Positions 6,001-53,039 of a stretch of 53,039 bases of DNA are shown one piece after another. The DNA lies in the NCBI RefSeq assembly GCF_000003605.2, contig NW_003121912.1, positions 312,765-365,803 on the forward strand, read 5' to 3'. Origin of the DNA: Saccoglossus kowalevskii. Taxonomy: Eukaryota; Hemichordata; Enteropneusta; Harrimaniidae. Under the pieces are notes generated by a model, which saw only the letters and a list, made by a program, of their open reading frames with translations, was not told the origin of the DNA and did not search any database. How positions within the stretch are numbered: position 1 is the first letter of the stretch; every line of letters starts with the position of its first letter. A program made the position numbers and the translations under genes.

Positions 6001-9000
6001 ATCACATAAATTGGCCTGATTTAATCCAGTTACTGATGTTTTATATCGAAGTCTGAAAACAAGATAATTTATAATCTAAATTATTCAATACTTATAGTGC
6101 AGTAACGTCACTGGGATAAAGATTGTTCTAAGTTTGTGTCCTTTATTTAGCATTGTTTGATTAATAACACTACTAAACAATTATGCTATATTTCAGACCA
6201 ACACCAGTTATAAGTCTTCTCAACCAGTACAAATTTCATGAAAAATTATTCTACAGTAAGTATAGAATCTAAATTTTGAAATGAAGTTTTTAAGAGGTGA
6301 ACACTTAGTCAAGCACCCCTCAAAAAATTATTCAAATGACAATTTTCTCTCGCCATTTAAGTTAGTGTGGGTTATATTACGTGTTTGTGGAAATGAAAAC
6401 ATTTTTTCATAAAATCAGTTGTGTTGTAATTGATTTCCACAACTCTCTTGTACATGTACAATGAACACACATGTTAACAAAAAATATGTACATTTTATTA
6501 TTACAATATTATTTTTGTACCCTATAATGTATGATGTGAAATTTATTAGTGTCTGTGAAAAAACAGTTGAATATTTTCAAGTTATACGCATTCTTCATTG
6601 AACTTTCTTTGACCAAAAAATGTTTTTAATGCAATGTGAAGTAAATTACCCATGCTGAATTATAATCTTTTGGAATTGATATTGAAGAAAAAAACGATAC
6701 GATTTTTTTTAAACTGGTGCAAAATCTATTGGTATGCCTAATAGCTTGATGGTGTCATTAAATATATCTATTCTGTACACACTGAATCTACCACCGTAAT
6801 TGGGATTACTAAGAATTTTAGGAATAATTTTGCTCCATGTTTAAATTACAGATGTAATAGAGAAGCTGGTCGAGCAAGGCAGACTGAAAGGCAGTGTGGT
6901 TGGTGGAAAGCAAGATAAGTCTTCATATGTACCAGATATATATGCCAAAACACAGAATAATTGGGTTGATTCATTTTATCAACAAAATGGTTACTTAGGT
7001 ATACTATAAATATATTAATTATTCACATAGTTTTAATTATATTTTGTAATTAAAGCCAACATAAAAATGTTTTGAAACATAGTATCTAATTACTATCATA
7101 TTGCTGATTTAAAGACCATCATTATGTAATGTTCAGACATTATTTGCTTTGGGGCCATGTCTATGCATAATAATTAGGTAATTTGCATATTGTCTCATTT
7201 CGATTTGTTTAAGCAAAATCACAACATATTTTATCAAATTTTCATTTTCTAAATATGTTTTTATAAATCAATAATGATTGCATATTTAGTAATCACACGG
7301 GAGCTTTGCAGATTTTTAACTTTGATTAATGATTTTGCTAGGACCAGTTCTTAGTGTTTACAGCACCACAGTTATTGTACCACTCGTGTCTGACTGGCGG
7401 CCATATGCAAAAGACAGTCATTTTACATCAGTAATATGTGTTCTATGGCTTTTTAAATGGTTAAATTAGTACTCCGGCATTACCAACATCAGTCAAATTT
7501 CAGTCTTTGTTGTCATTGCTAAGCAGCAGAATTCATATTTATTTAAACAAAAATCTTTTTCATTCTTGGCAAAAAAAAACTATTTTAATTCCTTTACATC
7601 ATGAGAAACAGTCAAAATTACATTCTTTATATCTTATGATCTAACGTATGACCTTTGACCCTTAATTCAGAATATGACACGTTAGCCAGACTTGGCATAC
7701 AGGATGGTAAATCCTATTTGAAGAGAAGATACAAGTCACAAGATGTGCTGTATTTACACACTGTATGTGTTGGTAGATCTATCCAAGATCAGATGGATGC
7801 AAGTATAGATGAAGCCTTAAATACTAATACATGGGTTGATATATCGGTGAGTATGTGACTTCTCTGAAACAAGTTGACAGACAAGTTTGATATTTGGTTT
7901 CTAGATGCTGTTTGTATCAAGGATAGTATGTAACATGGCAGTCATATACACTTACACTTGACTTGCATTATGCATCAGAACATCATTGTTTTTTATGAAT
8001 ATAATTAATAAACATTTCACAGTGTTTATTACTGATTGCCTTTGTTTCCAAGTCAGTTGGTTATTTATGGAGGTTTTCAGCAGATGATATGCTAACAAAG
8101 GAATTATAAAAAAAAAACATAAAAATGGTAAACCAAAATAGGGCATTAGATAAGTAGTCAATATTCAATGACAACTTCACATTCATAACATTAGTTCATT
8201 ATTTCTATCTAATTATTTGATTGTAAATTCAAGAATTTTCTCTGTGGAATGAGTCTGGGAGATTATCTGTCTGATTAAATCTGATGTAGCTTTATTACAG
8301 TACTTTCAGTGTACACACTTCTAACTACATCTGACCAACTACATGTGGTATGCAAATGTGGATCAACCAATCAGAATTAGTGTTACAGGCCACTTTTTAG
8401 AATGACATGGCATGGTTTAGTAAGATCTGCTCCAATTGGTTAACCTCAGATTTTAATCAGATTAATGGATTAGAACTGAATCTTGACCATATTTTTTTTC
8501 AGCCTCTGCTTCCATCACCATTTACAGACACCGATGCCAATCAGTTATTAAATAAGATTATGAAAGATAAACCAAATGCCAGGGTATTCTGTGACAGTAT
8601 TGTAGCAAGTCAGTCATTTCTAACGAAGTGTAAATCCCCGTTTGAAAATCTAATGAAGAAAAAAGCTGAGAAGGTAAGGATATTTAATGTCTTTGATGTG
8701 CTTGCATTTCACACAGCGAAGTAATGACTTAATTACTAAAGGGTCATATGCTGCAAGTTTCTTTCATTCCCTGGTACATAACTTGGTTCAATATTATTGT
8801 CACGCCACAAGTTTTTTGATCATTTACCTATTCCCAATTCTGAATTACACTATGTGAACCGATTTAACCCATTTTTCACACCTCGTTCCCATCAACACAA
8901 ACTGCTTGAATCAATCGTAATAAACATTGACCAGGGATCTGCCAGGTAGCAGGTTGGCCATCCTGTGAATCTGAGTGAACTCTTCTGAATTTTTAACTTT

Positions 9001-12000
9001 TAAAAACAATATCCAACTATTATGTTAGTCAACACAACATATAGTAAACAGAGTACAGCTTATGTCTGGATAAACTGTAAACTGATTAATTTTCGCTGCT
9101 GATTATGGCAAAATTTGTGAAAATGTTTTGAAAGTCAGTGACATAGGTCTTCTGGAGTTATTTTCACTGCTACTAAATTATGCTTCTTTAACTTGACTGA
9201 CAAAAGTTTTATATTTCCAAAAATAAATAAACTCTCTGCCCAAAGCTGTTGGTCCAACCGTGTTTCAAAAGCTACAGTTTTCTACTATGCTTCCTAAATT
9301 AAACTGATGTACGGGAGTCTTGTTGCGATTTTGACAAACCCCTATTTTGTAGTCTGTGTAGTTGGTGTACAGTGTTTAATATTCATTCATGTCTGTTTCT
9401 AGTCCATATATGTGTAATTTCTTCTGGCCCCCAACAATTTAAACAACTTCAGTTCTGGTTATTGATAGGCCCTAAGAAAGCATTTACAGTCACCTTTGCA
9501 GTATTTGTTGCACTGGCAACATTAAGGTAGAAGCCTACTCATAAATTATAAAACCCGGAATTTATTCATTTTGCAATAAATTGTACTCCAAGGCAATATA
9601 AGATTGTTGACCTAAAAAAAGTTGGGGGTCACCAGCGATTTTTTCGAGAAATTGATGGTTGTATTTTAGTGGAAAGTCGACATTTTGACACTGTTATAAC
9701 ACTTTTACCACAGATGTCTATGGCAGAGATATTGTGCAATATCCTAAAATCTAGCCTTGTGACATGGGCTGAAAAAAATCATATATAGTTAATGATGGTG
9801 TACTTTTTGTTCTGAATTATTTAAATAATCTGGGTTTTAAATAGTGTCAAAAAATACAATTTTTCTTAACATTGTGTTCTATGGAATTGTTCTAAAAATA
9901 GCAATTTTCAAGAAATATTAAGATATGTTTTTCAAAAAGCATAACTGTAACACACAAAATGCTATTTCATTGTACCATGAGACATTAGCTTCATGATTGT
10001 ACATAATAAACTAATGAACATTGTCATGCGATTTATGACCAATTTTGTCAAATATTATGACTAGGCTTCTACCTTAAGCACCAGTACGTCTATGAACATT
10101 GGTTGACTATATTAATTTGCAAATGTATAAATAATTGTTCATAACATCAAATAGATGTATACATGTAGCAGTACTTGTACTTCAGCATGGGTGTGCACAC
10201 TAACAAGTACAAGTTATTTTCCTAGGATGCTAAAAATGCACCTGCAATGCTTAAAGAAGAGAAAGCTGTCGCTTCTGGATCCGGTAAAAAAGACAAAAGA
10301 GATGAGAGACGGAAACGTGCCACTGGTGGCGCTGGAAGCACTCATTCCGGAGTAGGGGGGAATGCTAGAGAAGTCAAGATTAAGAAAGCTAAAAAAGGAA
10401 GAGGAGGGAGATTTGTAGATGCTGAGGATGAAGAGGATATGGATGATTTCACACAAGGTAGGTATTTCCAATTTAATCATTCATCATATATTCTATTTTA
10501 GTCCGAAAAGGGGACTATTAATTTGGGTTCGTTCCATACGTCCATCCATCAGTACGTACGTCCGAAATGGCCGACTGTGTGTCCGCAGCAGTGTCTCGGA
10601 GATGACTGGGCCGATTTGGATCAAAGTTAGTATGACGATCATACATATTGGGTTGTAGGTGTACGTCATTTTTTTTCCATGATTCGAACAAATATGGCCG
10701 ACTGGTGGCCATTTTGTTTTTCATGGTACCCATGCTACTTTCTCTTGAATGCAATGAACGTTTCTCTTTAAATTTTGTACAAAAACAGTATACCAATAGA
10801 TACATCAACATGAACATTATTTTTTGTAATTTGATTCAATTTGACTGCCCAATGTCCAATTCTCGTGTAAAAGCACTAAATCATAATTTTTTACAAATCC
10901 ATCTCCTATTAATGGTTTCAATCTATTCTCAATGACTTCAAATTGATATGTCAGATCACAAAATTTTGGACAGGACTGTGTCATTAACAATGACTTGTTG
11001 AATTTTGTGTTGACAATGTGTTTTACACTTGTTGCTTACCGATCTCAAACTTGGCATGGCATTGAACCCAATGAATTTGTTATTATAAAGCTACAAAGAT
11101 GAAATACTCGCATCTTCCTGCATTTAGAGATTAATTTTTACAAAAATCTTGTCAGCACTACTCAGTTTCTTTAAAATTATCCCACATTGATATAAAGACG
11201 TTATACCGGTAATCTCATTTGCATCCTTCTTTTTTTTCACATGCAAACATTTTAATATGATTGCTAATATTTAATCATCACTCATAGCTTCACAACCAGT
11301 GAATGCAACATGAAAAATATTGTTTTAAAAAAAGATTTCTAAATACTGCAAAATGACTAATTTTCACTGGGTTTAAATTTCACTAATGTACCATTTCAGG
11401 CATATTCACTGGGTTTTAAATTCATGGTTTTATCAGATAATGTGTTCTATGCTAAATTTTACATATTCACTGGGTTTTAATTGAGCACATTTTCCAATCA
11501 GCGAAATAAGCAAAATTAAAACCCAGTGAATAATTAATCCTTTCACAGTATACTGAAAAGTATGCTCCTACAACATGAAGTTTTGTGAATAGAATGTCAA
11601 TATTATTTTTGTTAAAGTAGCATCTTGCTGTCCTGTCTCCTTTCATAAAAATGTGCAAAGTACAATCTCAGTGATTGACGCCTTGCTTTTTAAGAAACCG
11701 CTCTAGATTGAAAATAAACTTTGAGCTAATCTGGTCAAATTAATTTAGCCACCTGTCAATACATTTACCATTTGGCAAATGGATAACAGAATCCCTGCTC
11801 TTTGCTTTGTGTTTTTTTGTTTTGGGGATTACATCTCTCACCATGTCATTAGACACAAGTATATCACTTAGTTTCTTCTCATGTTCTGTATTCCAGGATC
11901 CCGGGATCGACCACAAGAACTGAAATTTATGTCACAAGAAGAAATAGAAGACGTACTGAGTGAAAACCTTACTGACTGTTCTGACAATTTCATCTCAGAA

Positions 12001-15000
12001 ATCGCTTCTGAACTGGTTAGGTAATGTTTACTGTACATAGTAAAACTTTCGTAATATCCAGAAATTTAAACCACTATTGTGGGGGGAAAATGTACATACT
12101 AATGTGCATTTTATTTGCATAATTATTGAAAATAGAAATTGTGATGATGATCTTGCTAATTAAAATGCACAAAAAAATTACTATACTGCCCTCTGGTGGC
12201 CTACTTTTGTATTTGATGATAATTTTGTTTTCTTCGCAGGCCTCTCACCAAGTCTTACCAAGAAGTGGCTAGATCTATATTTATGCAGACTACTGGTACA
12301 TCAGATAGTGTTGACAGACGGAAAACACACTCGGAATTGCAAGATAGAATCAATGGACTCTGGACTAATATTAAATTATTTGAGAAAGGAATTAAAATTG
12401 TCAGCGGTAAGGGTGAGAAGTTTTCTTTTGATTATATAATTAATTTTGATTTATTTATTTATAGTTCAACATATTGCAGTAATGTTTCATGCTATATTTG
12501 TTTATTTTTGACTATATCACATTAAAACATACTATCATGATGGATCTGAACATCAGATATGCATTTTACAATTTACTGTATTTAAAAAATAGTAATATTC
12601 TAAATTAATGATTGAGTATACTACAAATGAGACTTGGGGTTTACATGTGCTTCTGTTGGAGAAAAACATGGTATTATTATCAGAATTTTAAAGCGACATT
12701 TGGATTCATCAGAAACATAATGAACATACAGTGTACAAACAAATTAAAATTGTTTGTAAAAATTAAAGATAGTAAACCATCATTTGCCATGGATAACAAT
12801 TTGAAAGAAATGCGTAATGTAGGAGCACATTTCTGTCAATTGACTGTTTTGTGATCATTGTAATAAGTAACATCCACATGCATGATCCTGAGCTGAATTA
12901 GGGACGACGTCAAAAGATCGATGTCGGATAAAAAACTTATTTGCTTTAGTTTGGGGGTGGGGGGTTTTGACCTCAGTTTCCATCCTACAAAAACGATTTT
13001 ATTTTTTAATGAAGTAAAAAAAATCTTGGAATATATGTAGTTCGTTTTTTTCCTATCCAATCATGGACAAAAATAACAGAAAATAAAAAAACACATCCAA
13101 GACAAGAAAATGTTTTAGTCAGAGTGTAAATGAAGTCAATTTCAGAACATAGAGCATGCGCAGAACCCAAAAAAGTATTTTGCGCATGCGTATATTCCCC
13201 TTCATTATTTCCTCTTGAACGGCCGAAGGTTTGGTGGCTGGGTTTTTTGGCAGACAACCAACTGCTATGCCATACTACTGTCCGATTATCAATTTGTATT
13301 TAATGGTGAATGTAGTCTGATCAATATGTATCAATTAAGTTTCAGTGGGGGTGGGGGGATTGGGAAAAAACTAAAGGAATTAAGTTTTTTATCCTACATT
13401 GAACTTTTGATGTTGTCCCTTACATGCCACTGGTTATCGATTTCATTATCTATTTTCCTTTGCAGAGGATCTCCAAGGTCAGTTATACAGGTATATCTTG
13501 AAGACTCTCTGTTCTGATATTTCTAATCTGCTCTTTGAAGCTTTAGCTAATGATAACATGTTGAGAGTAGAAGACTCTAGCACTCTTACACCAGAGGTGA
13601 GAATAATCTTACTACTGTAGTTTATTTTTAATATTTCCAATTTAGTTGTGCTATAAATAAACATAAATTGGGTTGAGAAATGTCATTTAAATTCATAGAT
13701 AACTAAAAAAAAACACTTCCTGGGATTATATATTCACTGATTTACCAATTAAGTCAAAATAAAGTGTTCTACAGCACTATTAGCTTTCATTCTGTCCACA
13801 TGTACCAATTGAACACTTTCTACTTCCTCAATTTTTTACAGCTGAGAGCCAAGCTACTTAATAAGTTTCCAGCTAATATTCAGAGCAAGATGACAAAATT
13901 ACACAATTCATTGACAGAAAAGGTGAGTAGTTTGTCTCATTGCCTCTCTAACCACTGAAATTCATATAGTTATATAAAATATGAAGAATCAGGTTTTATT
14001 AGGAGAAATATTTACCANNNNNNNNNNNNNNNNNNNNNNNNNNNNNNNNNNNNNNNNNNNNNNNNNNATGTTCTATCTGAACTCTTAGTTTGTGATATGA
14101 ATCTGGATATTATACCTCTTTAACTTGATCAGAATGACAGATGGTTTGTTCTGATGATCAGAGTATTGAAAATCAAAATTCTCTAATTGAAACTCTGTAA
14201 TTCCTGACTTGTGTACAACAATGTAGTATACATAGACGACTTTCCCGGAAGTTGAAGAACCGGCTTTTCGCATGCGTAATTGGGATGTAACGTAAACTTG
14301 CACGCGTGATATTGTGCTCCTGTGTGTACCAATCGACGTAACAAAAATAAAATTCTTTTCTATTGACTATCAGTAAACTGACATGGTTGTATTTTCCCCC
14401 ATGACAAAGCAGGAGTATCTTACACCCCAGTTTTGCTACTTCGGGAAAGTGGTCTATTAATGGCATAGATTTATCAAAGTAAATCTGTTGACTATTTGAA
14501 TACTATCTGGTTGCTCATCAAGTATCCAGTGGTTTTTGCCAAGTTCTGAAGTTCATTTTCACTGAAAAGAATTTTTGGGTGTTTTGTATGCAGTTTATTT
14601 TCACTGATTTTTTTTTTTTTTTATGAGTTCAATGTAAGAAAAAAGATATTTTCACTGAATCATCCCTTAAGTAAAAATAGAGAAAATAAACCCCTTGAGA
14701 AAAACTACAAATAATTGTCAGTTTTAATACTGTTCTGCCATTTGGAAGTATTGATCTTTGACTCCGACATGTGCTTTCTTGGTGTGTGATACAAGTAAAT
14801 AGGAATGGGTATCTCTAATGATTTATAGAAGTAAATCTGTTTTGTGGTTTTGCCAAGTTCTGAAGTTCATTTTCACTGAAAAGAATTTGTGTGTTTTGTA
14901 TGCAGTTTATTTTCACTGATTTCTTTTTATGAGTTCAATGTAGAAAATAATTTTCAGTTTTAACACTTTTGCTTGCAGCACAAGAACTGTTCTGCCATTT

Positions 15001-16581
15001 GGAAGTATTGAGCTTCGACTCTGACATGTGCTTTCATGGTGTGTGATACAAGTAAATAAGAATATGCAACATCTGTTCTTTTTTCAGAATTTGGATGATT
15101 TTAATAGTCATTTTGATGATGCATGTTCTCTCTGTGATGTGATGTTAAAAAAGTCTGATAAAAAGAAAGACAGGTAATAAGCTAACACAGAGTCATTAGT
15201 AAATAGTTTTAATTTTACAGGAAACACTCTTTCATCAGTAAGAGAAAATAGTGACATATTGTAGTTTTCTTGGTAATTTTGTTCCTCACTGTAGATGCGA
15301 ACATGCTTGCTGTGAGATTGTAAAAATGTGTATTTTAGATTTCACTTTTTTGCAGATTTAAATTTAATAGGAAATATCAGGGTTTGTTATATGTCATTGC
15401 ATGCCACTGTGATTATATTATGAGATTATTACCAGAATACCTCAAAGTCTGCACGAAGAAAGTACAACTGGAGTATCGACCGACGCGCAGCAGAGGTCGA
15501 TGCGACGGTGTACTTTCTGAGTGCATACTTTGAGGTATTCTCATAATAACCTTATTATTATACATCTTTTCCTTCCATGGATACACCATAGGAATGCCGA
15601 AATCCAAAATGTTTAGAACAGAATCAGCGAACTTCTTTGTGTTAAATCCGGTCAAACTCACATTTCACATTTCCTAATATGGTAGGATGAAAATACCGCA
15701 AAATTACGGCACGCTGTAATTTTTGACATTTCGGTGATAGATGTATAATAATATAAATTTACCACAATTTTCTATACATATTAGTAAGTTATTTATTTAA
15801 AAGTTATCTTTTAATAATGCATGCGTTAGATAGATGAGATGTATCCATGGTCAAAATATTCCTATAATCCAAAAAATAGAGCAAATGCAAGAACTAATAC
15901 AGCTTAAATATTGAATTGTGTGCCCATACACAAGAAAAACATTGATTTAAAGTTGAGCAAATAATCCCTGGTGTTCAGACAGAAATAGTGGAGGAATATT
16001 ATATTATTCTACATTCCTACACCTGTAAGGTAACATGGCATTAACCCCAAGTAAAGCAACGTGGTGAAGATTCATGTACTTGGCTGAGAAGTTTGCCAAC
16101 TATTGTCTCATTCAAAATATCCTTGTATTAATGTAAATTATGTCATTGTTCAATGTGGTTATTGTAATTCTGCTTCCTGTGTGTTCTTTGCAGGCAACTT
16201 ATATTCAACCACAGACAGGCCTTAGCAGAGCAGATTCGTAACGAGGAAGAGCCTGCCATGCTGCTGCATTTATGTAGTGTTATGTTATTCCAAACATATA
16301 CCAACTGTATGATCCACGTGCCGGGACGATGCGTGCCTCAACTCATCGCTTTCTTAGCAGATGAGATCCCGTCGGAGCATCACGAACAACTACTCAAGTT
16401 TCAAGGACTGGTGCAAAAACGACTTGGCACAGATCGGGCAGAAAAACTAGATGACTGTAGCGAAAAAAGTGATGTTGAAATTAACAGTGATACTGAAGTA
16501 GTCGCCGAAATGAGTAGCTTTGTAACTGTGATAAGAGAGATAGCATTGTCGAAGAAACATGTCCCAAATAAAGAAGACTGA
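71..16581 (+). CDS. UFL1: E3 UFM1-protein ligase 1 (UFL1), 5' partial, 16 exons
   Basis: UFL1 is the E3-like scaffold that, with UFC1, DDRGK1 and CDK5RAP3, transfers UFM1 to targets such as ribosomal protein RPL26 at the ER membrane. Exons: 71-216, 1057-1085, 1407-1504, 3093-3207, 3783-3913, 6197-6255, 6852-6998, 7671-7846, 8503-8673, 10226-10457, 11897-12020, 12240-12406, 13466-13596, 13842-13922, 15088-15173, 16194-16581. All have AG/GT borders and the phases join without a frameshift, giving 759 residues. They follow human UFL1 (794 aa) from about residue 27 to the end: [53 protein letters not shown], the basic [13 protein letters not shown] with [40 protein letters not shown], and [12 protein letters not shown] near the C-terminus. 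An acidic stretch ([10 protein letters not shown]) follows the basic segment. The start codon and about 26 N-terminal residues lie left of the window. The 1.6-2.2 kb introns are loaded with repeats. Identity is nearly certain; each exon edge was judged by eye. Confidence 0.96.
173..570 (+). repeat. Tandem duplication copying the end of a UFL1 exon and its intron start
   Basis: Bases from about 173 (last 44 bases of the first visible exon plus about 150 bases of intron) recur from about 388 with an offset of 215, shrinking to about 203 through small gaps. The copy still reads [14 protein letters not shown] where the exon reads [14 protein letters not shown], and the donor GGTAAG has become GGTAAC. 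The copy lacks the exon's beginning and any acceptor in the right phase, so it is probably a dead exon fragment. Confidence 0.8.
3941..5794 (+). mobile_element. pogo/Tigger-like DNA transposon, defective, in UFL1 intron 5
   Basis: The left end (3941-3971, starting CTACCGTAAAAATCATAATT) and the right end (5764-5794) are inverted repeats of about 31 bases with one indel and a few mismatches. Between them lies a broken transposase of the pogo/Tigger branch of Tc1/mariner. A TA dinucleotide directly precedes the left end; on the right a TA follows one base further out, so the TA target duplication is close but not exact. The length of about 1.85 kb is short for a Tigger element, in line with an internal deletion. 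The left end sits only 27 bases after the donor of the 3783-3913 exon. Confidence 0.85.
4443..5432 (+). pseudogene. Broken pogo/Tigger-type transposase
   Basis: The fragments are collinear with pogo/Tigger transposases but fall in several frames. From 4443 an N-terminal helix-turn-helix segment reads [14 protein letters not shown] and later EKEVRNWF. Around 4901 the first catalytic motif [11 protein letters not shown] is intact. Near 5060-5125, [20 protein letters not shown] matches the C-terminal part of the DDE domain. From 5229 the tail reads [13 protein letters not shown] and ends in an acidic [11 protein letters not shown]. The segment between KLHPLIIV and the IPGGLTS motif, which normally carries the second catalytic aspartate (LVLDSFRAH-type), is missing, so the element lost roughly 80 codons as well as gaining frameshifts and stops. 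It cannot encode an active enzyme. Confidence 0.85.
9522..10076. mobile_element. MITE-like element with TTAA-flanked inverted ends
   Basis: Left end TTAA-GGTAGAAGCCTACTCATA (from 9522) and right end TATGACTAGGCTTCTACC-TTAA (to 10076) form inverted repeats of about 18-20 bases with one mismatch. Because TTAA is itself a palindrome, the target duplication may be TTAA (piggyBac style) or only TA (mariner style). The inside is AT-rich and has no coding potential. It lies in the UFL1 intron between exons 8503-8673 and 10226-10457. Confidence 0.75.
10501..10725. repeat. Candidate interspersed repeat (GGGGACTATTAATTTGGGTT... type)
   Basis: Directly after the 10226-10457 exon lies a segment unlike the AT-rich intron: a GGGGACTATT start, repeated CGTCCATCCATC/ACGTACGTCCG motifs, and two nearly equal phrases, AAATGGCCGACTG at about 10564 and AATATGGCCGACTGG at about 10691. 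It resembles dispersed repeats I know from marine invertebrate genomes, but only one copy is in this window and I see no clear ends. Confidence 0.4.
11362..11532. repeat. Cluster of TTCACTGGGTTTTAA motifs
   Basis: Three direct copies of TTCACTGGGTTT(T)AA (about 11363, 11405, 11466) and one inverted copy (about 11513-11531) lie within 170 bases in a UFL1 intron. They may be nested remnants of a short inverted-repeat element. Confidence 0.55.
12186..12199 (-). promoter_or_regulatory. Candidate CTCF-type site in a UFL1 intron
   Basis: On the minus strand the sequence is CCACCAGAGGGCAG, which fits all 14 positions of the bilaterian CTCF core CCASYAGRKGGCRS. Binding is inferred from the motif only. 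Confidence 0.4.
12898..13422. mobile_element. PIF/Harbinger-like MITE with TTA target duplication
   Basis: Element 12901-13419 starts GGGACGACGTCAAAAG and ends CTTTTGATGTTGTCCC. The inverted ends continue for about 50 bases with mismatches and include GGATAAAAAACTTA on both arms. TTA flanks both sides (12898-12900 and 13420-13422). A 3-base TTA duplication with GGG-starting ends is typical of PIF/Harbinger. No transposase is present. Two GCATGCGC-containing, NRF1-like motifs lie inside (about 13154 and 13183). Confidence 0.8.
14018..14067. other. Assembly gap (50 N)
   Basis: A run of 50 N in the UFL1 intron between exons 13842-13922 and 15088-15173. Both neighbouring exons join in phase, so no exon need be lost here. 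Confidence 0.99.
14233..14456. mobile_element. Small MITE with TA-flanked inverted ends
   Basis: Left end TA-GACGACTTTCCCGGAAGT (from 14233) and right end ACTTCGGGAAAGTGGTC-TA (to 14456) are inverted, with one mismatch and one indel. The TA on both sides suggests a Tc1/mariner-type MITE of about 220 bases. It is visibly richer in CpG than the surrounding intron, which suggests recent insertion. Confidence 0.7.
14531..15063 (+). repeat. Tandem duplication inside the UFL1 intron
   Basis: Copy 1 (about 14531-14806) and copy 2 (about 14846-15063) share GCCAAGTTCTGAAGTTCATT, TTTTGTATGCAGTTTATTTT, CTGTTCTGCCATTTGGAAGT and GTGTGTGATACAAGTAAATA in the same order. Copy 1 carries an extra 60-70 bases in the middle and a long T run. 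Copy 2 ends about 24 bases before the 15088 exon, so the duplication abuts a splice acceptor. Confidence 0.85.
15418..15553. mobile_element. Foldback (long hairpin) element
   Basis: The left arm includes AGAATACCTCAAAGT and GAAAGTAC, and the right arm includes GTACTTTC and ACTTTGAGGTATTCT. The arms are about 55-60 bases each, imperfect toward the inside (TATCGACC against GGTCGATG) with almost no loop. This looks like a foldback or palindromic MITE. I could not fix a target duplication. Confidence 0.7.
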
Positions 16582-32653: not shown

Positions 32654-35600
32654 TTATACCAGAGGTGGCGTGAGGGGGTTCCATCCCTGTTTAGGCGCCG
32701 ACAAAGTTTGGTGGGTTGTGTACGTGTCCGGAACGTCGGTGTGCGACGACTCGTAGATAGGCGAATGACCGGAATGTAAGCTGTTCGTTCCACTCATGGT
32801 GGCGGGGATCGAGCCGTATGGCGATCGAATAATTCCCGTTGGTATGGCTGTGTTAGCACTAGTCACCGGTGTTCCCATCTGCCACATTGATGGATATTGG
32901 CTGCTGGGGTGCGATGTGTGCGACGAGACGGGTAGAGCCGGCCAGTTTTCATGAGCTGACAGCATTGACTCGGCTGCGTAACTATTGGCTATAGAAACAA
33001 TAAAATAAAACATGATTAGTTAACATGGCGGAAAAATGTACAAATGTAAGTAAAAATCATTAAAATTAATCCAAAAAGTTCAACATATTGACGGAGTTTT
33101 GGAAGTTTCTTGTAGTCACATTGTCATTGTCAATTCTAAATATTAATGACCACGGTTGCTGGAACGACCGGGTTAGATGTCATAAAAGTCGGACACCGTG
33201 AAGAACCACCTTGGTTCTTGGCGCCTATCAATGTTACCACCTTTTATTCGATTGCCAAATTACAGGTTTGAACACCGCGTTTAGTTGATTAGCGATAAGG
33301 GGGTTCTAATAAAACGAAATGACGGAAAATGAGAGTGAACTTGAACAAAAAGTAGACATACATGACTGGGCAAAAAAAAGAACTTAAAAAAAAATACAAG
33401 TTGGTAAAAGTTTGTCAAAATTTCGAACGGTTGGTTCAAATATGCGGCAATGTCACTAGAATTGGTTTCATTTTTGGTGAGAAAGTGGAAACGGACGAGA
33501 ATAAAAACAAGAACGTGGATGACCCAAGGTGAGTCAGTATTTTTAATGTTTTTTTGACGAACGGCAATAAAACATAACAACAAATCGTAACGTGAAATTG
33601 AATTACAGGAGTACGTTGAGTGTCTGGTTAAAAAATAAACCTGATTGTCAAGGAAGAGTACCAGTTAAAACATTGCCAAAGCTATAAACTATTCATGGTC
33701 GTGTTTGGATGGGCCAAGATGGCCAATGAGATATAAAACCCAACAGCGCCATCAGCTGTTCGTCAAAACTTGGACAGTAACTAAGGAAACAAACAGGAAA
33801 CGGGTGTGTGGAAATAGTAGTAGTTGCATTTGTAGTATGCAACTTGTATTTTTTAATCATAACGAAGTCGAATTATAATAATCTGAAAACTGAAATAGTA
33901 CCACTCGTTCGGGCGAAGTCGTAAAACCGAACCCGTGTGCATGTGATATGTCGTAAAACAGTATTCCGTTTATTTAGATGCCTAATTACACAGGGTCGTA
34001 AAAAGATTGACAATGGAGTTTGAAAACGAAAATAAGCCATGTACTTGAGTCCCCAAAACGTTTACATACTGGGTATATGTAGTTGATAGAGGGGGAAAGG
34101 TAATCTTGTGACGCCGGCTATTTTTTGTGACAAAGAAGTAGCGTGGGACGAGGTGATAATAAAGTCAATTGTGGGGGAGATGGTACAAATATCAATTTGA
34201 GAGTCACGTCTGTTTGTCAAGTTATGAATCATACAAGGGCGTCAATTCGATTGAAAAAGTGTGTCTGTATACATCGATGGTCCGTTACTACTTTGGGTGG
34301 TACGGGTCAATATGAGTTGGTATATCCACGGCGTAATCGGTATGTTGTATCATAGAGGGTCCATAATTGCATGTCAGAATAATATATGGTAGTTCAATTT
34401 ACAGTTATCAAAAAAGGGTATAAACGGATAATTAGTTTCACAACAGCTAATAATATAGTTATTATATGAGCGTACTTACCAGTTTGTGAGTGTTTTTGGT
34501 ACGGTGATGGGTACGGAGCGCTTCTGTGAGATCTGAGACTGTTGTAGCGTTCACAGCCAGGTGCGCTTCCATGTAAACCTATACTGCTGAACTGTCTGGG
34601 GTCTGGAGCGGGACATAACGCACTCGTACCAGGGAGAAACCATCCACCAACTGTAACAAAAAAAATAATTTGATTTGATTACATATAGATAATAATAACG
34701 ACATGACATGAAATTAAATACTGAATTACATATACATACAACGGAAAACGAACTAGTATTACGTAGGAATATCGCATATATGCGATGTCCTCGCTAACGG
34801 AGACAAAATCGATATATTATTGGTTTGGTAATCGGTCTAGCTATTTCACAGTATGTATTACAGCACAATACGAAGGTGATAACACTAAACTGTAAACAGT
34901 CTGGCGGTCGACGATCCTGTGACACTCTATTCATATTATTGGTACACCCATTTCTCATACTTACGCTGTGAGCACTGTTGCTGCATGTCATGCACATGGG
35001 CCTCGGCAAATAGGTCTCTGCTATCACACCTGGAAATAGAAACACGTTTAGTTTTAGTTCGCGGCTGGGAGATCTCAAATTGTAACAGTTTATGTGAGCA
35101 TGTGCGGCAGTAATGCGGGTGTGGGAAAGGTTGTATCGGGTGTTTGTGGGACCATAGGAGGGAAGTAAGGATGACGACAATACAGGGGTGGGACGATTAG
35201 CTACACAGCCCTGTCAATGCGTGTTTGGATAAGTAATTTACCAATCAATTTACTGGACAAGAAGTACACAAAACCACCCTCTTTTGGGTGAAAGTGTTGC
35301 AAAGACGTCAGACAAACACAGCTGTGAACATGACTTTTGTAAAAAATACAATGGGCTCGACGGACTAGTAAAAAGAAAGTTCAAAACAATGCCTGAACTA
35401 AGACAACACATTACAAAACGTAAATTAACACGTTGATCAAGAGACAGAGGGGTCAGTTATCGGTGAGTCCACGGCGGGTTGGAGCTTGAACAATTTAAAA
35501 GACGTGTTTTGTAGCTATGCGGGGCTTAGCGAAAGACGGGATGTGAAGTCCGTGATGTCTTACCTTTCTTTGGCGTCTAGGAAGGCTTTAGCAAACGGAT

Positions 35601-37048
35601 TGTGTTTTATCTTGAGTGCAGTAATCTGGAAGAGAAAAATAGCAAAATTTGACTACTTGTACATGTACGTAGAACCATTTTAGCGCATAATGCCATGGGC
35701 ATAACGCCGTGGCAAGGTGTCACAGAAGCCGTCGGCGAAATCAAAGACATACGTGAATCGGATTACAAGAAATCATCTCTAATATTGATAAGAAGGTGAC
35801 GATGGCAAATAACAAATTAGCTGATATCATGTAAAAATATATCGTAGTCCTGGCAACGCGATAAAATCTTAGGAAATACGATAATACAAATGTTTTGTTT
35901 TAGTGAAAGTAAAACCCTTACCTCTTCGTTCTGATAGGCGGTAACGGCAATGAAACGGGTGTCTTTGAAAGTATGGGTGCTGACCATGCGCTGTTTTTCG
36001 TTACCTCCAACTTTGATGATATGAACTCTAGGTTCGTATTTATGAAGAGAATGCAGCATGATCTAAGTCAAATGGAAAAAAAACACGAATTAATTAAATT
36101 AAAATTCAATGATAAGTAAATACACAGCGTAATTATCAGATAGCACACACTCGAAGAACTAAATAAAACTTTTGTGCAACTTACATGCCCGCCGCCGTTG
36201 AGTTTATTTGTTAGTTTCACTTTACTGAAATTAACAGACTGCTTCATCCAGTGGGCTCCGAAGTTAGGCGAATCAGGGTGTATATAGACAGAACTCGGTG
36301 CAGCGGCTTCGGGTTTACCGCCGGGCACCCATTCACCGTTCACATACTTCCAGCGGTGATTGTCGGCGGCCACGAAGTCTAGAAGTACCGAATACATGGC
36401 GTTTGGATCCAGCCCTGAGATTGAGATACGGAGGACTGGAAACATTCGTCTATGAAAAACAAAAAAATTCAAATTGTATTGTCCAGGCACTCACGTTGCT
36501 ATACTAGTATACAGATTTCAAAATATAACTAAGTTAGAACACTATATCGGCGAAACTGTTTATTCACGAAACTGTCCATTTAAGTGTTATTTTTCTGTTT
36601 TTGGTTAGACTGATGAACGAGACATACGAGATGCGTTTTTGTCTAAAGTTTTTATTTTTTATGAATACCGGCTTTCGATTGGCAGGTAAATCTGTAAACA
36701 TTTGCAAACACAACGGCACACATCGGTAACTCAGTATTAATACAGTGAATTATTGCTCTTATAGCATGATTGCTAAACGCCAGTTCATAATTCACCAACC
36801 ACCTAACAATTACATTTAAATCTTAATTTTAAAAACGACTTTTTGATTATTTACCTTCCGTTCTTGGTGACAATCATTTCATTTGTCAAATTCCCAAAGC
36901 GTTTCCATAATTCCACGTCTTCTAGCGATATTTTAACGTGTCGTTCCGTTGGGTCTCCCTTTTTGGTACAGTCGTTCATCTCGCTCTGCACGGCGCTCAA
37001 GAGGTGGTTCACGTTGTACGACGGTGGCTTCATGTCAACTGTTGTCAT
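32654..37048 (-). CDS. TBXT (Brachyury): Brachyury T-box transcription factor, complete, 7 exons
   Basis: Exons in gene order: 37048-36855, 36449-36185, 36062-35922, 35625-35564, 35029-34965, 34650-34480, 32988-32654, all with AG/GT borders and joining phases, for 410 residues. The N-terminus has the Brachyury signature [12 protein letters not shown] and KGDPTER (residues 13-35). The T-box spans about 42-221: [82 protein letters not shown] and [13 protein letters not shown]. The C-terminal half carries GGWFLPGT, a serine/tyrosine-rich [13 protein letters not shown] and ends LTPPLV. The protein binds TCACACCT-type half-sites and controls gastrulation, blastopore and, in chordates, notochord genes. 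Position 153 is His in NGGGH, where vertebrate Brachyury has Gln. The start is the only upstream ATG in phase with the conserved N-terminus. Confidence 0.97.
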
Positions 37049-47000: not shown

Positions 47001-47074
47001 ATTCTATTCTATTCTATTCTATTCTATTCTATTCTATTCTATTCTATTCTATTTTATTCTATTCTATTCTATTA
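47001..47074. repeat. (ATTCT)n microsatellite
   Basis: About 15 tandem ATTCT units with a single interruption (ATTTT). Confidence 0.98.
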
Positions 47075-48361: not shown

Positions 48362-50239
48362 ATGTATCGAGCGGCGTTCTTACTGCTGGGCTACATGCGA
48401 CTGCATTATGTTACGGCAGTCTTTTTTATTCAAGAACCACAGAATGTGACTATGTCCGAAGGTGAAAACCGCGAACTGAGCTGTAAACTGGCCGGATTAC
48501 AGGCTGCGATGAAAGTGTCCTGGACTAAAAACGGTATCACAATAAGCGATAACTATTTGATTAGAGCAGAATCGACTACATCGACTCAACTCTTGCACTT
48601 AAGTATCGTTGGTAGTTTTTCCATTGGACAATATAATTTACTGATAAAAGACGCCAGTGTTACTGAAGAGGGGAGTTACCGGTGTGTTGTTGCCGCGGCT
48701 GAGAACGACTTTGTTTTGAAGACATCTCGCGCGGCATCGGTCTCGGTACTGATCGCACCGAAGATGTCCCCGATGTGCAGCATCACACCGCCCATCTTAC
48801 CTTCTCAGGATGTTGTACAGGACGATACGTTTGAAGTGCAATGTCAGATAATAACAGAACAACCACCTGTAGAAATTATATGGATAGACGCATATGACAA
48901 CATACACGCCGGTAGTGAAGAGCGTGTAGACCATGTGACGACAAGTAGTTTTAAATGGGTCCCTCAACGACGGGATATGCATATGTCATTCAGTTGTATC
49001 GTCATACATCCTTCCTTGCGCACACCATTGCTATGCTCTCTGGGACCGTTCAATGTCGTTTACAGACCGGTTATATACATGTTTGCAGAAGACGACGCAA
49101 CAGAAGTAGGCAGTTCGGCAACTTTTACCTGCGAGGTCGATTCTAACCCACCTGTCTACGAGTTCTTTTGGACGTACGGTGGAATTCCGATATTTTTAAA
49201 TTCGATGGGTAGTCGGTTCAGTGTACGTGGAGGTCCGAACGGGAAAAGTTGGTTGACGATAGCAGGTGTAGGAGAAGATGATGACGGCGCCTTGATAGCA
49301 TGCCGTGTCCACAATCTACAGGGCGTCACGGAGGCCAATGTAACGTTGAATGTTACCGCCATGATCAACGTAACAGTGGAGTACATCTTGGTGAAACAGG
49401 AGTACGCCACGTTAGTTCTCTTCACATGTCATGCAAGATCGATAGTCGAACCACTGCACTACACGTGGTTTTACAACGACGAAAATCTCAATAATTCGGG
49501 AAAATTTAATGTGTTGTATATGGGATCGGCATTGTTGGTTTCGAATCTGTCTAAAGTTGATATCGGCGCGAACGTCACATGTATCGCATCAAACACGCTT
49601 TCTGAGGCCGATGATACAACTGTCTTAGTCGTTGACGCCGACACCTTGACTAAGATATCACAAGAATGGAGACATATAGATAGAAATGATACACTGATTA
49701 AAATTGCTCTATTTATCAGCGGTTTTATAATGGGAGCCATAATTATCGGTATTCTAGAATTTCTAACATTGAAAAGGGTAAGACGTTTGAGTCAAACTCC
49801 GAAGAATCGTAACACGCGAGGCAACCAAAGTGGCACCATCTTCGTCCAACCAGAACCGGAAAATAATCTAAACAGACGGAACTTGTCCTCACTTAACCTC
49901 ACCTATGACGACACCGATTCGTTAGGATACATTCAGCCAATCGGAGACAGTTCATCAGGAGCTAACAGCACGTTGCCCGGAAGAGCAAAACCATATATGC
50001 CGCATCATCTTAACCTCACCTATGACGACACCGATTCGTTGGGGTACATTCAGCCAATCGGAGACAGTGCCTCGGGGGCTAACAGCACGTTGCCTGGAAG
50101 AGCAAAACCATATATGGACATTGACCAGTCGATGGTAGGGGTGAATAGCGACTACCAGAAACTAAATAACACGGAAAAACAGCTGGGAGCTGTGGCTAAG
50201 AAAGTGGCGATGCTTGAGTATGATAACAGAACTAAATGA
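48362..50239 (+). CDS. Intronless four-Ig-domain membrane receptor with tyrosine-motif tail
   Basis: One uninterrupted frame of 625 codons from 48362; an in-frame ATG at 48353 (3 residues longer) is also possible, and 48362 is preferred because the downstream paralogue also starts MYRA. Order: signal peptide (about 1-22); Ig1 with C41, W54 and C108 (GSYRC); Ig2 with C161, W174 and C212; Ig3 with C257, W270 and C314; Ig4 with C356, W369 and C407; a membrane segment (about 446-470) with the stop-transfer KRVRR; and a cytoplasmic tail of about 150 residues. The tail holds a tandem 39-residue cassette with TYDDTDSLGYIQP (Y515/Y523 and Y554/Y562), an ITIM-type SDYQKL (Y598) and a Grb2-type YDN (Y620). 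Ig2 resembles the CD80-like C2-set of Kirrel/nectin proteins. The role is inferred: adhesion or immune-type signalling at the cell surface. No ligand or orthologue can be named. Confidence 0.88.
   Translation: MYRAAFLLLGYMRLHYVTAVFFIQEPQNVTMSEGENRELSCKLAGLQAAMKVSWTKNGITISDNYLIRAESTTSTQLLHLSIVGSFSIGQYNLLIKDASVTEEGSYRCVVAAAENDFVLKTSRAASVSVLIAPKMSPMCSITPPILPSQDVVQDDTFEVQCQIITEQPPVEIIWIDAYDNIHAGSEERVDHVTTSSFKWVPQRRDMHMSFSCIVIHPSLRTPLLCSLGPFNVVYRPVIYMFAEDDATEVGSSATFTCEVDSNPPVYEFFWTYGGIPIFLNSMGSRFSVRGGPNGKSWLTIAGVGEDDDGALIACRVHNLQGVTEANVTLNVTAMINVTVEYILVKQEYATLVLFTCHARSIVEPLHYTWFYNDENLNNSGKFNVLYMGSALLVSNLSKVDIGANVTCIASNTLSEADDTTVLVVDADTLTKISQEWRHIDRNDTLIKIALFISGFIMGAIIIGILEFLTLKRVRRLSQTPKNRNTRGNQSGTIFVQPEPENNLNRRNLSSLNLTYDDTDSLGYIQPIGDSSSGANSTLPGRAKPYMPHHLNLTYDDTDSLGYIQPIGDSASGANSTLPGRAKPYMDIDQSMVGVNSDYQKLNNTEKQLGAVAKKVAMLEYDNRTK
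49892..50115 (+). repeat. 117-bp in-frame tandem repeat encoding the tail cassette
   Basis: Unit 1 is 49892-50008 and unit 2 starts at 50009 and runs to about 50115. They share CTTAACCTCACCTATGACGA and differ at about seven bases, mostly third codon positions. The period of 117 bases equals 39 codons. Confidence 0.95.
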
Positions 50240-50283
50240 GAGTCATGATCGTCTGCTATCATGATAATGGCGGGAAGCTTGTG

Positions 50284-50289
50284 AATAAA
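50284..50289 (+). promoter_or_regulatory. Poly(A) signal of the first Ig gene
   Basis: AATAAA 45 bases after the stop codon, immediately followed by a second overlapping AATAAATA. Confidence 0.55.
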
Positions 50290-50435
50290 TAAATATATAT
50301 ATGTCATAATATATCAAGAACTAACATATCATATTCGGAGATGATTAAACTTAACAATAAAAACAATTATCGTTGTTTATTTTATTCATTTTGTTCAGCA
50401 ACTGTTTCATACGGAATAACATGAGACCGAGCCAA

Positions 50436-50556
50436 TCACTACGTTCACGTGGCTGGTTGAATTACTACGCGTGACTGGTCGAATCACCACGCGTGTCTGG
50501 TCTAGTCACTTCATGTGACTGGTCGAACATACACGTGACTGGTTGAATCACTACAC
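50436..50556 (+). repeat. Degenerate 20-26 bp tandem repeat with E-box-like cores
   Basis: About five units of the type TCACTACRYGTGACTGGTYGAA, several containing CACGTG, ACGCGT or CATGTG. They lie about 200 bases after the stop of the first Ig gene and 1.1 kb before the second. Confidence 0.75.
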
Positions 50557-51638
50557 TATCTATTAAAATTGAGTAAAACTTAATATAAACCGGAAATTGC
50601 TACAATTAGGGTGTATTTATTCCATACCCATCGCTACATGTATGTATTTATTTTTATTAATTTTCGTAAATTTATCATTAATAATATTATCCTTATGAAA
50701 TACAAATATTTATTAATACTATAAAATATTGTAATGCGTGAATAATCTATGTATGGGTATTGTTGGAGATGTTTTGTGATGGGTGTATGTATATGTCCAG
50801 TATTTTCTCGGTTAATTGAAGTTTTTGTTGGTAATTTGTTTTCTTCATAGATTACTGATATATTGGTTACGTCATGTTTTAATACGCCCTGGGCGATGCT
50901 AACGAGGCCATTGTGTCCCCCTCAATAGCGCTACGTTAGGGAATATATGCCAGATCTTATTCAAAAGTATGTGTGTTTTGTGGGATGTCAATTTCACCAC
51001 GTTCTGCATTGAAATCGCTCCAAAATAAAATAGCTGCTACGTTGATCAATTTTGATTACTGCGATGGTTAATATTGTCATATTAGAAATAAAGAACCAAT
51101 ATTCTGATTACATATATCGTGGCATTACTAAAGTTTAGATAAAATAGCCGATTAAATCATACTATTAAACTATAAACAAAAAACTAAATTTATAGTAAAG
51201 AACTATATAACCATCGATCATTGTGCCAAACTCGTAAGGTATTTAAAACATTCCCGCGTTTGTTTAACCCCCTTCCCAACCATTTGTCATTCTACTACAC
51301 ACTATGCATAACGCTATTAATAGCCCAGCGTCCAGATTTTAAACCAATGTTTACGAGGTGTGTATATACAGTAACTGCGAATGTATGAACGAACGTGATT
51401 TGATGTAATTTTTGTTCCAACAGTGCGTTTGGCAATGAACTGTTGCGACCGCACTGGGTGACATCTTGGATCGACACTTGTTTAACCGGGTCAAGTGGTC
51501 ATGAAAGTGTAAATCAACTTAACCGCACCCTGCCGTGTCACATGACTGTTATAAGAACCATCAGTGCAGGCCATTCGTAGTTGGTGTGGATTGAATTTCG
51601 ACGATGGTGCGAATTACTCTGAGTATACAACGTATACA
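50557..51638. other. Spacer between the two Ig genes
   Basis: About 1.1 kb of AT-rich DNA with no coding signal. TTATAAGA at about 51549 may be a TATA-like element for the second Ig gene. Confidence 0.5.
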
Positions 51639-53039
51639 ATGTATCGCGCTCTTCAGGTAATTCTCCTGGGCATGTGCGTCTTGCAGATTTTGTTTTCAAC
51701 GCCAAAGAGGGTCACTGTCAAAGTTGTTGGGGGAAATACGATGGTCCCGGAAGGTGGCAATGTCACTTTGAAATGTACAGTAACCCAGCTGACCTTATCA
51801 GAAACGGTGTCATGGGTCAAAGGTAACACGATTATTAGTGAAAACGATAACATCCGCAACCCCGGAGAAATGATCAGCAGTCGTCGTTACAATGTTGTTG
51901 CGAAGGATGGTGAATACGACTTGTACATCGACAATTTTCGGGAGAGCGACGCCGATGAGTATCAATGCATAGTCACCGATTTCCAGGTGGCGCACCAGCA
52001 AGTGGTTAAAACGAGATCTGTACAACTGACTTTTCATCACAAACCACCTGTTCCCGTATGTGAAGTCACATCAGGAGTCATTAAACGGGAAGTAGTCGTA
52101 GGTCAAACTGTCACGTTTGTGTGTATGTTGAACAGATCACGGCACAATGTCCGCCTTCAGTGGTTTCGAACACCGGATGGAAATTACCTCAAATCACGGG
52201 ACGATGAAGATGTTCACTATATCTATAGTTACTATACTTGGCTGCCATCGAAACGCGATTCCGACTTAAATCTCGCGTGTGCGGCCCACTATCGAGACTT
52301 AACATTAGATACTTTACCTTCTTGCACTGTTAGGCCGTTTACCATACTGTACAAGCCGAATATAAGTATTTATCCGAATATTGCTCGACCCAAAATAAAC
52401 GAAAACGCTGTGTTCCGATGCATTGCAGACGCCAATCCAACAGCGACTTCGTGTACGTGGAACTACAACGGTGTTGCAGTCGTCAGAATCTTACTGGAGG
52501 ACAGAAGATTGAGACTGTCAAACGATGGCAGTACACTTATAATCTCGAATGTGCATCCTGGTGACGTGGTCGCCGTACTGACTTGTGACTGTTTCAACCA
52601 CGTCGGCAACAGTACTGCTAGGGCAATGCTGGAGATAGAAGAAGACGAAATTGACTTCACTGTCAGTTTAAAACATCGAGTGGCCGGACAAGTTCGTCCA
52701 GGGGGCGTGGCTGTATTTGTATGCGATGTTCATAGTATGCAACCACAGCTTGATAAATGCAAGTTTAATTGGAGTTTCAAAAGTGTGTTCGTTGACAATA
52801 ACTGCGACACCGACAGGTTTATTTTAGAACAACGCATACGCAATGCATTGCTGCTAATTACGAATGTATCTATCAGTGACAACAGCGGAGAATTGAAGTG
52901 CAGTGTGACATGCGGTCACGCAACAAAGACCGATTCCCTGAAATTGGACGTCTCGGTCGAGGAAGCGGAGGATGCCAGCAGCTTCTATCAACAGCGCAAA
53001 CTAAATCAGGACTCCGATATCGTCATCAGAATACCGAGA
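51639..53039 (+). CDS. Second intronless Ig receptor, 3' partial, paralogue of 48362-50239
   Basis: An open frame of 467 codons from ATG 51639 to the right edge with no stop. Order: signal peptide (MYRALQVILLGMCVLQILFS); Ig1 with C46, W59 and C110 (DEYQC); Ig2 with C162, W175 and C214; Ig3 with C261, W274 and C316; Ig4 with C362, W378 and C421. Residues after 440 look like the juxtamembrane region, so the membrane segment and tail should follow outside the window. It shares with the upstream gene the MYRA start, the domain order, and an Ig2-Ig3 linker pattern (WLPSKRD here, WVPQRRD there, then a Cys, then PF..LY.P against PF..VYRP). The sequence identity is low, so the duplication is old. An ATG at 51604 in another frame overlaps the start (19 codons with stop). 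Confidence 0.87.
   Translation, partial: MYRALQVILLGMCVLQILFSTPKRVTVKVVGGNTMVPEGGNVTLKCTVTQLTLSETVSWVKGNTIISENDNIRNPGEMISSRRYNVVAKDGEYDLYIDNFRESDADEYQCIVTDFQVAHQQVVKTRSVQLTFHHKPPVPVCEVTSGVIKREVVVGQTVTFVCMLNRSRHNVRLQWFRTPDGNYLKSRDDEDVHYIYSYYTWLPSKRDSDLNLACAAHYRDLTLDTLPSCTVRPFTILYKPNISIYPNIARPKINENAVFRCIADANPTATSCTWNYNGVAVVRILLEDRRLRLSNDGSTLIISNVHPGDVVAVLTCDCFNHVGNSTARAMLEIEEDEIDFTVSLKHRVAGQVRPGGVAVFVCDVHSMQPQLDKCKFNWSFKSVFVDNNCDTDRFILEQRIRNALLLITNVSISDNSGELKCSVTCGHATKTDSLKLDVSVEEAEDASSFYQQRKLNQDSDIVIRIPR

Follow-up and report, generated by a model that had tools for sequence, protein, structure and literature searches.

Two single-exon immunoglobulin receptor genes

The window analysed here, a stretch of 53,039 nucleotides (nt) from Saccoglossus kowalevskii (C1466:312765-365803), closes with two genes on its forward strand, gene 1 and gene 2, which are probably old members of a large single-exon family of type I membrane receptors. 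The sequence-only reading had both genes running through four immunoglobulin (Ig) domains in a single frame, and this holds: gene 1 is complete, from the ATG at 48362 to the stop codon at 50237-50239, has no internal stop and is preceded, 123 nt before the ATG, by a stop in the same frame; gene 2 stays open as far as the window reaches. Beyond it the sequence is N for 3,097 bases (L009), which hides the membrane span and tail of gene 2.

48362..50239 (+): gene 1, complete single-exon coding sequence of 625 amino acids (aa), with signal peptide, four Ig domains, membrane span and tail
48362..48424 (+): gene 1 signal peptide, approximate (N-terminal helix of the model at residues 2-20, by-eye reading)
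48425..48751 (+): gene 1 D1, V/I-like, approximate borders (Pfam Ig_3 24-110, V-set 24-117)
48752..49066 (+): gene 1 D2, C2-set_2 (Pfam 151-222) with the extra cysteine pair C139/C225
48776-48778 and 49034-49036 (+): codons of the extra D2 cysteines C139 and C225, both invariant in 19/19 aligned members
49067..49360 (+): gene 1 D3, I-set, approximate borders (Pfam, 19-member alignment, model)
49361..49651 (+): gene 1 D4, an additional D3-like domain (domain comparison with other members)
49697..49753 (+): gene 1 membrane span, residues 446-464 (hydropathy 2.37; model helix 444-470)
50284..50293 (+): possible poly(A) signals, an overlapping pair of AATAAA that lie 45 and 49 nt past the gene 1 stop codon
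51639..53039 (+): gene 2, single-exon coding sequence with four Ig units, ATG at 51639, 467 aa, open at the window end

Pfam matches (Ig_3, I-set, C2-set_2) place Ig domains along residues 22-425 of gene 1. The AlphaFold2 model, built from a shallow alignment of four sequences [mean predicted local distance difference test (pLDDT) 54], gives strand sets compatible with four Ig domains and then the membrane helix; its confidence is best in D2-D3 (blocks of 151-330 at pLDDT 70-89) and lower in D1. Signal peptides and membrane spans, here and in the other genes, come from hydropathy and by-eye reading. The canonical D2 cysteines of gene 1 are C161 and C212; the extra pair C139/C225 would form a disulphide of its own. 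D4 is nearest to the D3 of other members (E-value 1e-9 to D3 of L013). In gene 2 the four units follow from a C..W..C reading, and Pfam gives fewer (Ig_3 twice, V-set twice and C2-set_2 once).

Hexamers of the form A[AT]TAAA also occur upstream of many family members. Just 3' of gene 1 lie about five copies of a 22-bp unit (CACGTGACTGGTCGAATCACTA; 75% matches, window 50446-50556), and ~1.3 kb upstream of the gene there are 14.6 copies of ATTCT (window 47001-47073).

A clustered family with a signature second domain

The genome searched is one assembly (4,830 contigs, 572 Mb). A search with gene 1 gave 59 matches and one with L012, another member, gave 64, which merge into at least 60 loci; only the best candidates were scored, so that these locus counts are lower bounds. 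Not all 60 belong to the family: the matches on C127 and those in short frames on C3325 are of a different sort, and there are fragments as well. Outside C127, an open frame of 400 aa or more is reported for at least 39 loci, on 12 contigs (12 loci on C1466, five each on C3169 and C3945, four on C1345, three each on C2456 and C3769, two on C3983 and one on each of five others). Two of these frames reach N and three contain one in-frame stop. To the right of gene 2, where it had been proposed to look for further copies, the next 3,097 bases are N; the family loci came from the genome search. The 12 receptor loci of C1466 extend over ~405 kb and surround the genes for UFL1 and Brachyury.

The family is recognised by its second domain. 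The D2 signature consists of the extra cysteine pair and an ending of the form C-x2-[GR][PA] (CxxGP-type), and its extra cysteines are among the 12 invariant columns of a 19-member alignment. The detailed reading covered 21 member rows, another four copies that are broken or partial, and five C1466 genes added later. All 21 member rows, genes 1 and 2 included, carry the signature, the pattern having been devised after 19 had been seen; the five later genes, which all have it (5/5), are the fairer test. It is missing from one 5'-truncated fragment (L023:6705) and from all ten retrieved Ig homologues (0/10, with nephrin and hemicentin among them); nephrin has one CxxGP string, not the full pattern. 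Pfam finds V-set in 14/19, C2-set_2 in 13/19 and I-set in 19/19 members. A clustered, intronless and diverged Ig receptor family, which the sequence-only reading had thought plausible, is borne out by these long frames, by the dozen of them on C1466 and by the D2 signature.

An in-frame stop lies 18-123 nt upstream of the chosen ATG in 20/20 members checked. Single-exon status concerns the coding frames; introns in 5' untranslated sequence may exist. By reading, most members have three Ig domains, often with a Ser/Thr-rich stalk. The number ranges from two (L033 and L037) to five (L036); L034, which has a second D1, has four, and genes 1 and 2 have a fourth unit. Four domains, as in the two window genes, are not the norm of the family. 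The common architecture would be one or more N-terminal V/I-like domains and the signature D2, followed in most cases by a D3 and a stalk, and then a membrane span and often a tyrosine-rich tail.

Three further loci were noted. In L033 (C1466:35000-38500) a repeated Thr-rich stalk of ~400 residues separates D2 from the membrane, and the tail has a pair of the immunoreceptor tyrosine-based inhibitory motif (ITIM) type. L038 (C127:39500-44500, reverse strand) is intronless, with five tandem D2-D3 units that have the same signature ending, Ser/Thr-rich linkers and a hydrophobic C-terminus like that of glycosylphosphatidylinositol-anchored proteins; part of it is N, and the reported C127 frame of 2,918 aa includes N. 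The C3325 matches to gene 1 lie in short frames of 112-148 aa and suggest a separate intron-bearing Ig gene or array.

Eighteen of the 25 loci of the first set are intact, running from ATG to stop with a membrane span and tail. Among the others gene 2 is cut off, L015 has a frameshift, L016 a stop and L014a no membrane span, and L023b, L024b and L026a are partial. Stops or frameshifts in several copies are what one would expect of dying retrocopies, non-functional copies whose frames are open by chance. The proportion of loci that read as intact argues against this, as do the 12 columns, the start methionine among them, that do not vary in 19 sequences, and the ratio of non-synonymous to synonymous substitution rates (dN/dS), whose interval lies below 1 in D3 for seven of the eight pairs tested, the pairs not being independent; no domain of any of the eight pairs has an interval above 1. 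Family conservation and dN/dS led us to reject chance open reading frames and pseudogenes, and decay of this kind is scarcely credible as an account of the family.

Relationship of gene 1 and gene 2

Genes 1 and 2 lie on the same strand, 1.4 kb apart, and each has a fourth Ig unit; they had been suggested to be the products of one retrocopy followed by local tandem duplication. Their proteins are 24% identical over 486 aa (E-value 2e-28). Over D1-D3, however, at least eight other members resemble each gene more closely than its neighbour does, the two are sisters in only 16 of 1000 bootstrap trees, and their fourth domains are unlike, with the relation of gene 1 D4 to gene 2 D4 scarcely recognisable (E-value 0.12). 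The approximately unbiased (AU) test does not reject the sisterhood (p 0.47). The MYRA start that was offered as a mark of the pair adds little weight; MY also begins L017 and L018a. On these comparisons a recent tandem duplicate pair is not supported, and derivation of this pair from a single retrocopy by local duplication is quite improbable.

Two classes of cytoplasmic tail

The tail set comprises 28 rows from 27 loci, L015 being entered twice with its frameshift. A canonical immunoreceptor tyrosine-based activation motif (ITAM; YxxL/I-x6-8-YxxL/I) is present in 8/28 rows against 0.17 expected from 1,000 shuffles, and the ectodomains contain none in 10,708 aa. Pairs of YADL-type ITIMs are found in eight rows as well (0.03 expected from shuffles) and in 0/27 ectodomain rows; the generic ITIM pair pattern occurs in eight tail rows (0.35 expected) and in one of 27 ectodomains. 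No row (0/28) has both an ITAM and an ITIM pair. Within a class the tails are alike across ectodomain clades (NVEGLTYADL..YAEVKL in one class; HYQSL..TYMTL / NYQPL..IYTQL in the other). The ITAM tail of L018b is an exception, no other tail matching it at an E-value of 0.01 in a comparison run without composition correction, which makes its E-values optimistic. We take the family tails to resemble those of SIRP and Siglec proteins.

On the ectodomain tree, where 13 of 24 rows are labelled with a tail class, four changes are required for each class, and well-supported branches make them necessary; shuffled labels need a mean of 4.6. Because the tail classes change about as often as shuffled labels do, ectodomains and tails have been re-paired during the evolution of the family.

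The tail of gene 1 is 161 aa long, with eight tyrosines and one YDN, and contains the following elements.

49892..50116 (+): 117-bp tandem repeat, 1.9 copies, 93% matches, with a 39-aa unit containing YDDT and YIQP
50111..50164 (+): YMDI-x10-YQKL, ITAM-like with too long a spacer (motif reading)
50147-50164 (+): ITIM-like SDYQKL, inside the YMDI-x10-YQKL stretch

A canonical ITAM in gene 1 was rejected, as the spacer is of 10 residues and the x9-12 ITAM-like spacing is within chance, being reached in 337/2000 shuffles.

An opposing pair, L018a and L018b

Two members on C1345, L018a and L018b, lie on opposite strands in convergent orientation with 3,063 bp between their frames. Between about nt 100 and nt 700 of the coding sequence their nucleotides are 95-100% identical. 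Elsewhere the identity is 80% in the signal-peptide part, 78% and then 54% in D3, 61% over the 100 nt that precede the ATG and ~40% farther upstream and in the tail, the similar tract measuring ~1 kb. The synonymous divergence (dS) is 0.03 in D1 and 0.10 in D2, 0.77 in D3 and 2.6 beyond D3. The tail of L018a is ITIM-type (LTYADL..ITYAQI), that of L018b has an ITAM (YQAL-x8-YTSL). Such a pattern is characteristic of paired receptors whose similarity is maintained by gene conversion, with D1-D2 as the probable binding region. CEACAM paired receptors of Xenopus were recognised on similar binding domains, opposing motifs, opposite orientation and conversion confined to the binding domains (PMC5112662). 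L018a and L018b are read as paired receptors because these grounds fit: their putative binding domains are near-identical, the tail motifs oppose one another, and the genes lie inverted in the same cluster with the conversion confined.

Similar signs are present elsewhere in the family. Three C3169 genes have a near-identical patch at codons 101-150 (dS 0-0.03 against 0.19-0.27 in the flanking windows), and L012 (ITIM pair) and L016 (ITAM) are ectodomain sisters without near-identity of the L018 kind. The recognition or immune role that had been suggested for such a family gains sequence evidence, from the ITIM and ITAM tails and from the one gene-converted pair.

Comparison with known systems

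Among solved structures, comparison by sequence puts MuSK and titin first, with Kirrel1 fourth; comparison by profile gives Robo2, titin and DSCAM, with SYG-2 fourth. Fold matching with Foldseek gives titin first and SYG-2 second among generic Ig chains at low TM-scores. Nectins and CADM rank below Kirrel1/SYG-2 in the structure rankings. Protein searches for orthologues returned generic Ig proteins only (nephrin, hemicentin, CD101-type and others). From these matches no known ectodomain family stands out. One-to-one orthology with the nectins or Kirrel, the outcome opposed to a new family, did not appear: in the match rankings, which are not a tree, they do no better than MuSK, titin, Robo and DSCAM, and the frames are intronless. 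The Kirrel/nephrin and nectin families are intron-rich.

The Kirrel/nephrin (SYG) and nectin/PVR/CADM proteins share with the family a V-type D1, a C2-set_2 D2 and an I-type D3. They differ in not being the top matches and in the D2 pattern, which in full is found in none of the ten retrieved homologues, nephrin included. In every echinoderm species examined kirrelL lacks introns; retrotransposition has been suggested as its origin, and the gene is required for skeletal cell fusion (PMC8903837). Like it, gene 1 encodes an intronless Ig-domain membrane protein of an ambulacrarian. The accessible text of that paper treats kirrelL as a skeletogenic fusion gene and mentions neither an array nor ITIM/ITAM tails (PMC8903837), the comparison being one by description. 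No kirrelL was among the proteins returned by our protein searches, which favour long multi-Ig proteins.

The receptors could be an adhesion or cell-fusion family of the Kirrel/nephrin/nectin kind, comparable to echinoderm KirrelL and amplified in this lineage, with tyrosines that recruit adaptors such as Nck, Crk or Grb2 to control actin instead of serving immune signalling. The fusion role of the intronless kirrelL is in keeping with this, and so are the ranks of Kirrel1/SYG-2 (fourth, fourth and second by sequence, profile and fold, above the nectins and CADM) and the YIQP and YDDT repeats and single YDN of the gene 1 tail. MuSK, titin, Robo and DSCAM match equally well or better, however, and ITAMs in 8/28 tails and ITIM pairs in eight others would be unexpected of adhesion proteins, as would conversion that, in an opposing pair, affects only the N-terminal domains. 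An adhesion role for the family is unlikely, if far from absurd.

The vertebrate CEACAM1/CEACAM3, Siglec-11/16, SIRP and KIR receptors resemble the family in their Ig ectodomains, ITIM-type versus ITAM tails and clustering, and vertebrate paired receptors resemble L018a/L018b in the inverted opposing pair and the conversion limited to N-terminal domains. The genes described here differ in being single-exon and in their own type of D2, and orthology is no part of the likeness. Vertebrate paired-receptor genes are split into exons by domain. For CEACAM an N exon is described (PMC5112662).

Clustered invertebrate Ig receptors with ITIM/ITAM-type tail motifs are found in Hydractinia (Alr) and Botryllus (FF/FcoR) (PMC12065747). 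FF and FcoR are multi-exon genes, unlike those of the family, and FcoR combines a V-type Ig domain, a sushi domain and two C2 Ig domains (PMC12065747). A Botryllus-type FcoR family was rejected, as a Pfam scan of 19 members gave no sushi match. The two systems also suggest a version of the recognition-receptor reading in which polymorphic self markers are read instead of microbes, as is thought for Alr and FF/FcoR. Clustering and ITIM/ITAM-type motifs are common to these families and ours (PMC12065747), which favours allorecognition. The data are one assembly only, which does not. Colony fusion, to our knowledge, is not known for acorn worms, which we count against it as well; pterobranch hemichordates are colonial. 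We regard this version as decidedly unlikely.

No intronless ITIM/ITAM Ig family is described for hemichordates or echinoderms in the literature searched (titles and beginnings of abstracts, mostly of open papers, without bioRxiv). A possible lead comes from Saccoglossus, where a cluster of four genes whose expression is higher following poly(I:C) challenge was enriched for CADM1-type terms (PMC10210618).

A possible recognition system

The family is probably one of activating and inhibitory recognition receptors, similar to the paired receptors of vertebrates and intronless like kirrelL, and may be an independently evolved recognition system. The N-terminal domains would most likely bind ligands on microbes or other cells. 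ITAM tails are predicted to activate through tandem-SH2 kinases and ITIM-pair tails to inhibit through SH2 phosphatases. Recombination re-pairs ectodomains and tails, and gene conversion can hold the binding domains of opposing partners alike. Gene 1 itself may signal through SH2 adaptors via its repeated YIQP/YDDT motifs and SDYQKL, which is our best guess and the weakest step of the scheme.

Several observations weigh against this proposal. A canonical ITAM and an ITIM pair are both absent from the gene 1 tail, and that of gene 2 is hidden by N, so that the signalling argument rests on their relatives. Twelve of the 28 tail rows belong to neither class, and related tails are not independent, the eight ITAMs amounting to about three groups. 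The single ITIM pattern is enriched in tails (29 against 6.1 expected) and is unspecific, with 30 occurrences in the ectodomains (10,708 aa) and 29 in the tails (4,278 aa); because of the ectodomain occurrences only ITIM pairs carry weight. Only one converted opposing pair was found. An excess of change in D1 is no more than suggestive in the three C3169 genes (w 0.78-1.05 against 0.27-0.35 in D3, with overlapping intervals), and three of the other five pairs show no D1/D3 contrast. Some copies are broken: a single in-frame stop interrupts each of C3945:385447, C3945:406574 and C3769:350982, and there are more stops in shorter pieces, a frameshift in L015 and loss of the membrane span in L014a. 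Finally, no outside homologue with the D2 signature was among the ten proteins returned by a search that favours long multi-Ig proteins.

A wider reading, possible but doubtful, would derive a hemichordate system like that of the natural killer (NK) cell receptors from an ancestral intronless Ig gene of ambulacrarians, with kirrelL as its surviving single-copy relative, co-opted for skeletal fusion. If this is true, dozens of single-exon genes would combine binding ectodomains with activating or inhibitory tails that recombine freely without introns at the joints, and the retrocopy origin of kirrelL would be older than the split between echinoderms and hemichordates. It is in vertebrates that paired ITIM/ITAM receptors are best known. 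The family would add an independent case in hemichordates, the sister group of echinoderms, make the link from a kirrelL-type retrogene to an immune-type receptor directly testable and be an example of domain and tail reassortment without exon shuffling.

Other genes of the window and the mitochondrial contig

Two ordinary genes lie inside the C1466 receptor cluster. UFL1 occupies window positions 3079-16578 on the forward strand (frames with PF25041 and PF09743), and Brachyury positions 32657-36490 on the reverse strand; the T-box frame of the latter matches solved T/Brachyury chains at E-values of ~1e-52, against 1e-28 or weaker for other T-box proteins. Between two UFL1 frames, at 4248-4631 on the forward strand, a frame with a Brinker-type DNA-binding domain (PF09607) is probably the remnant of a pogo/Tigger-like transposon. 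Rfam and tRNA scans of the window gave nothing.

A COX1 search matched a mitochondrial contig of 17,037 bp (C4830), in which genes were named by eye and codons read at conserved positions. AAA reads as Lys (in nad1, nad5 and cob), ATA as Ile (in cox2), AGA as Ser and TGA as Trp; AGG is not present in the seven genes read. The nad5 gene adjoins cob, and nad6 is on the other strand. ATA as Ile is common to echinoderms and hemichordates, AAA as Asn is specific to echinoderms and AAA as Lys is found in Saccoglossus; adjacency of nd5 and cob occurs in hemichordates and Xenoturbella (PMC2697986). From the code and the gene order a hemichordate genome is therefore most likely, and an echinoderm was rejected by AAA at conserved Lys positions. 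In the same contig (L029, L030) cox1 is on the strand opposite that of nad1 and cox2, which neighbour it, and nad1 comes after nad2, an order that is presumably unlike the usual one of hemichordates.

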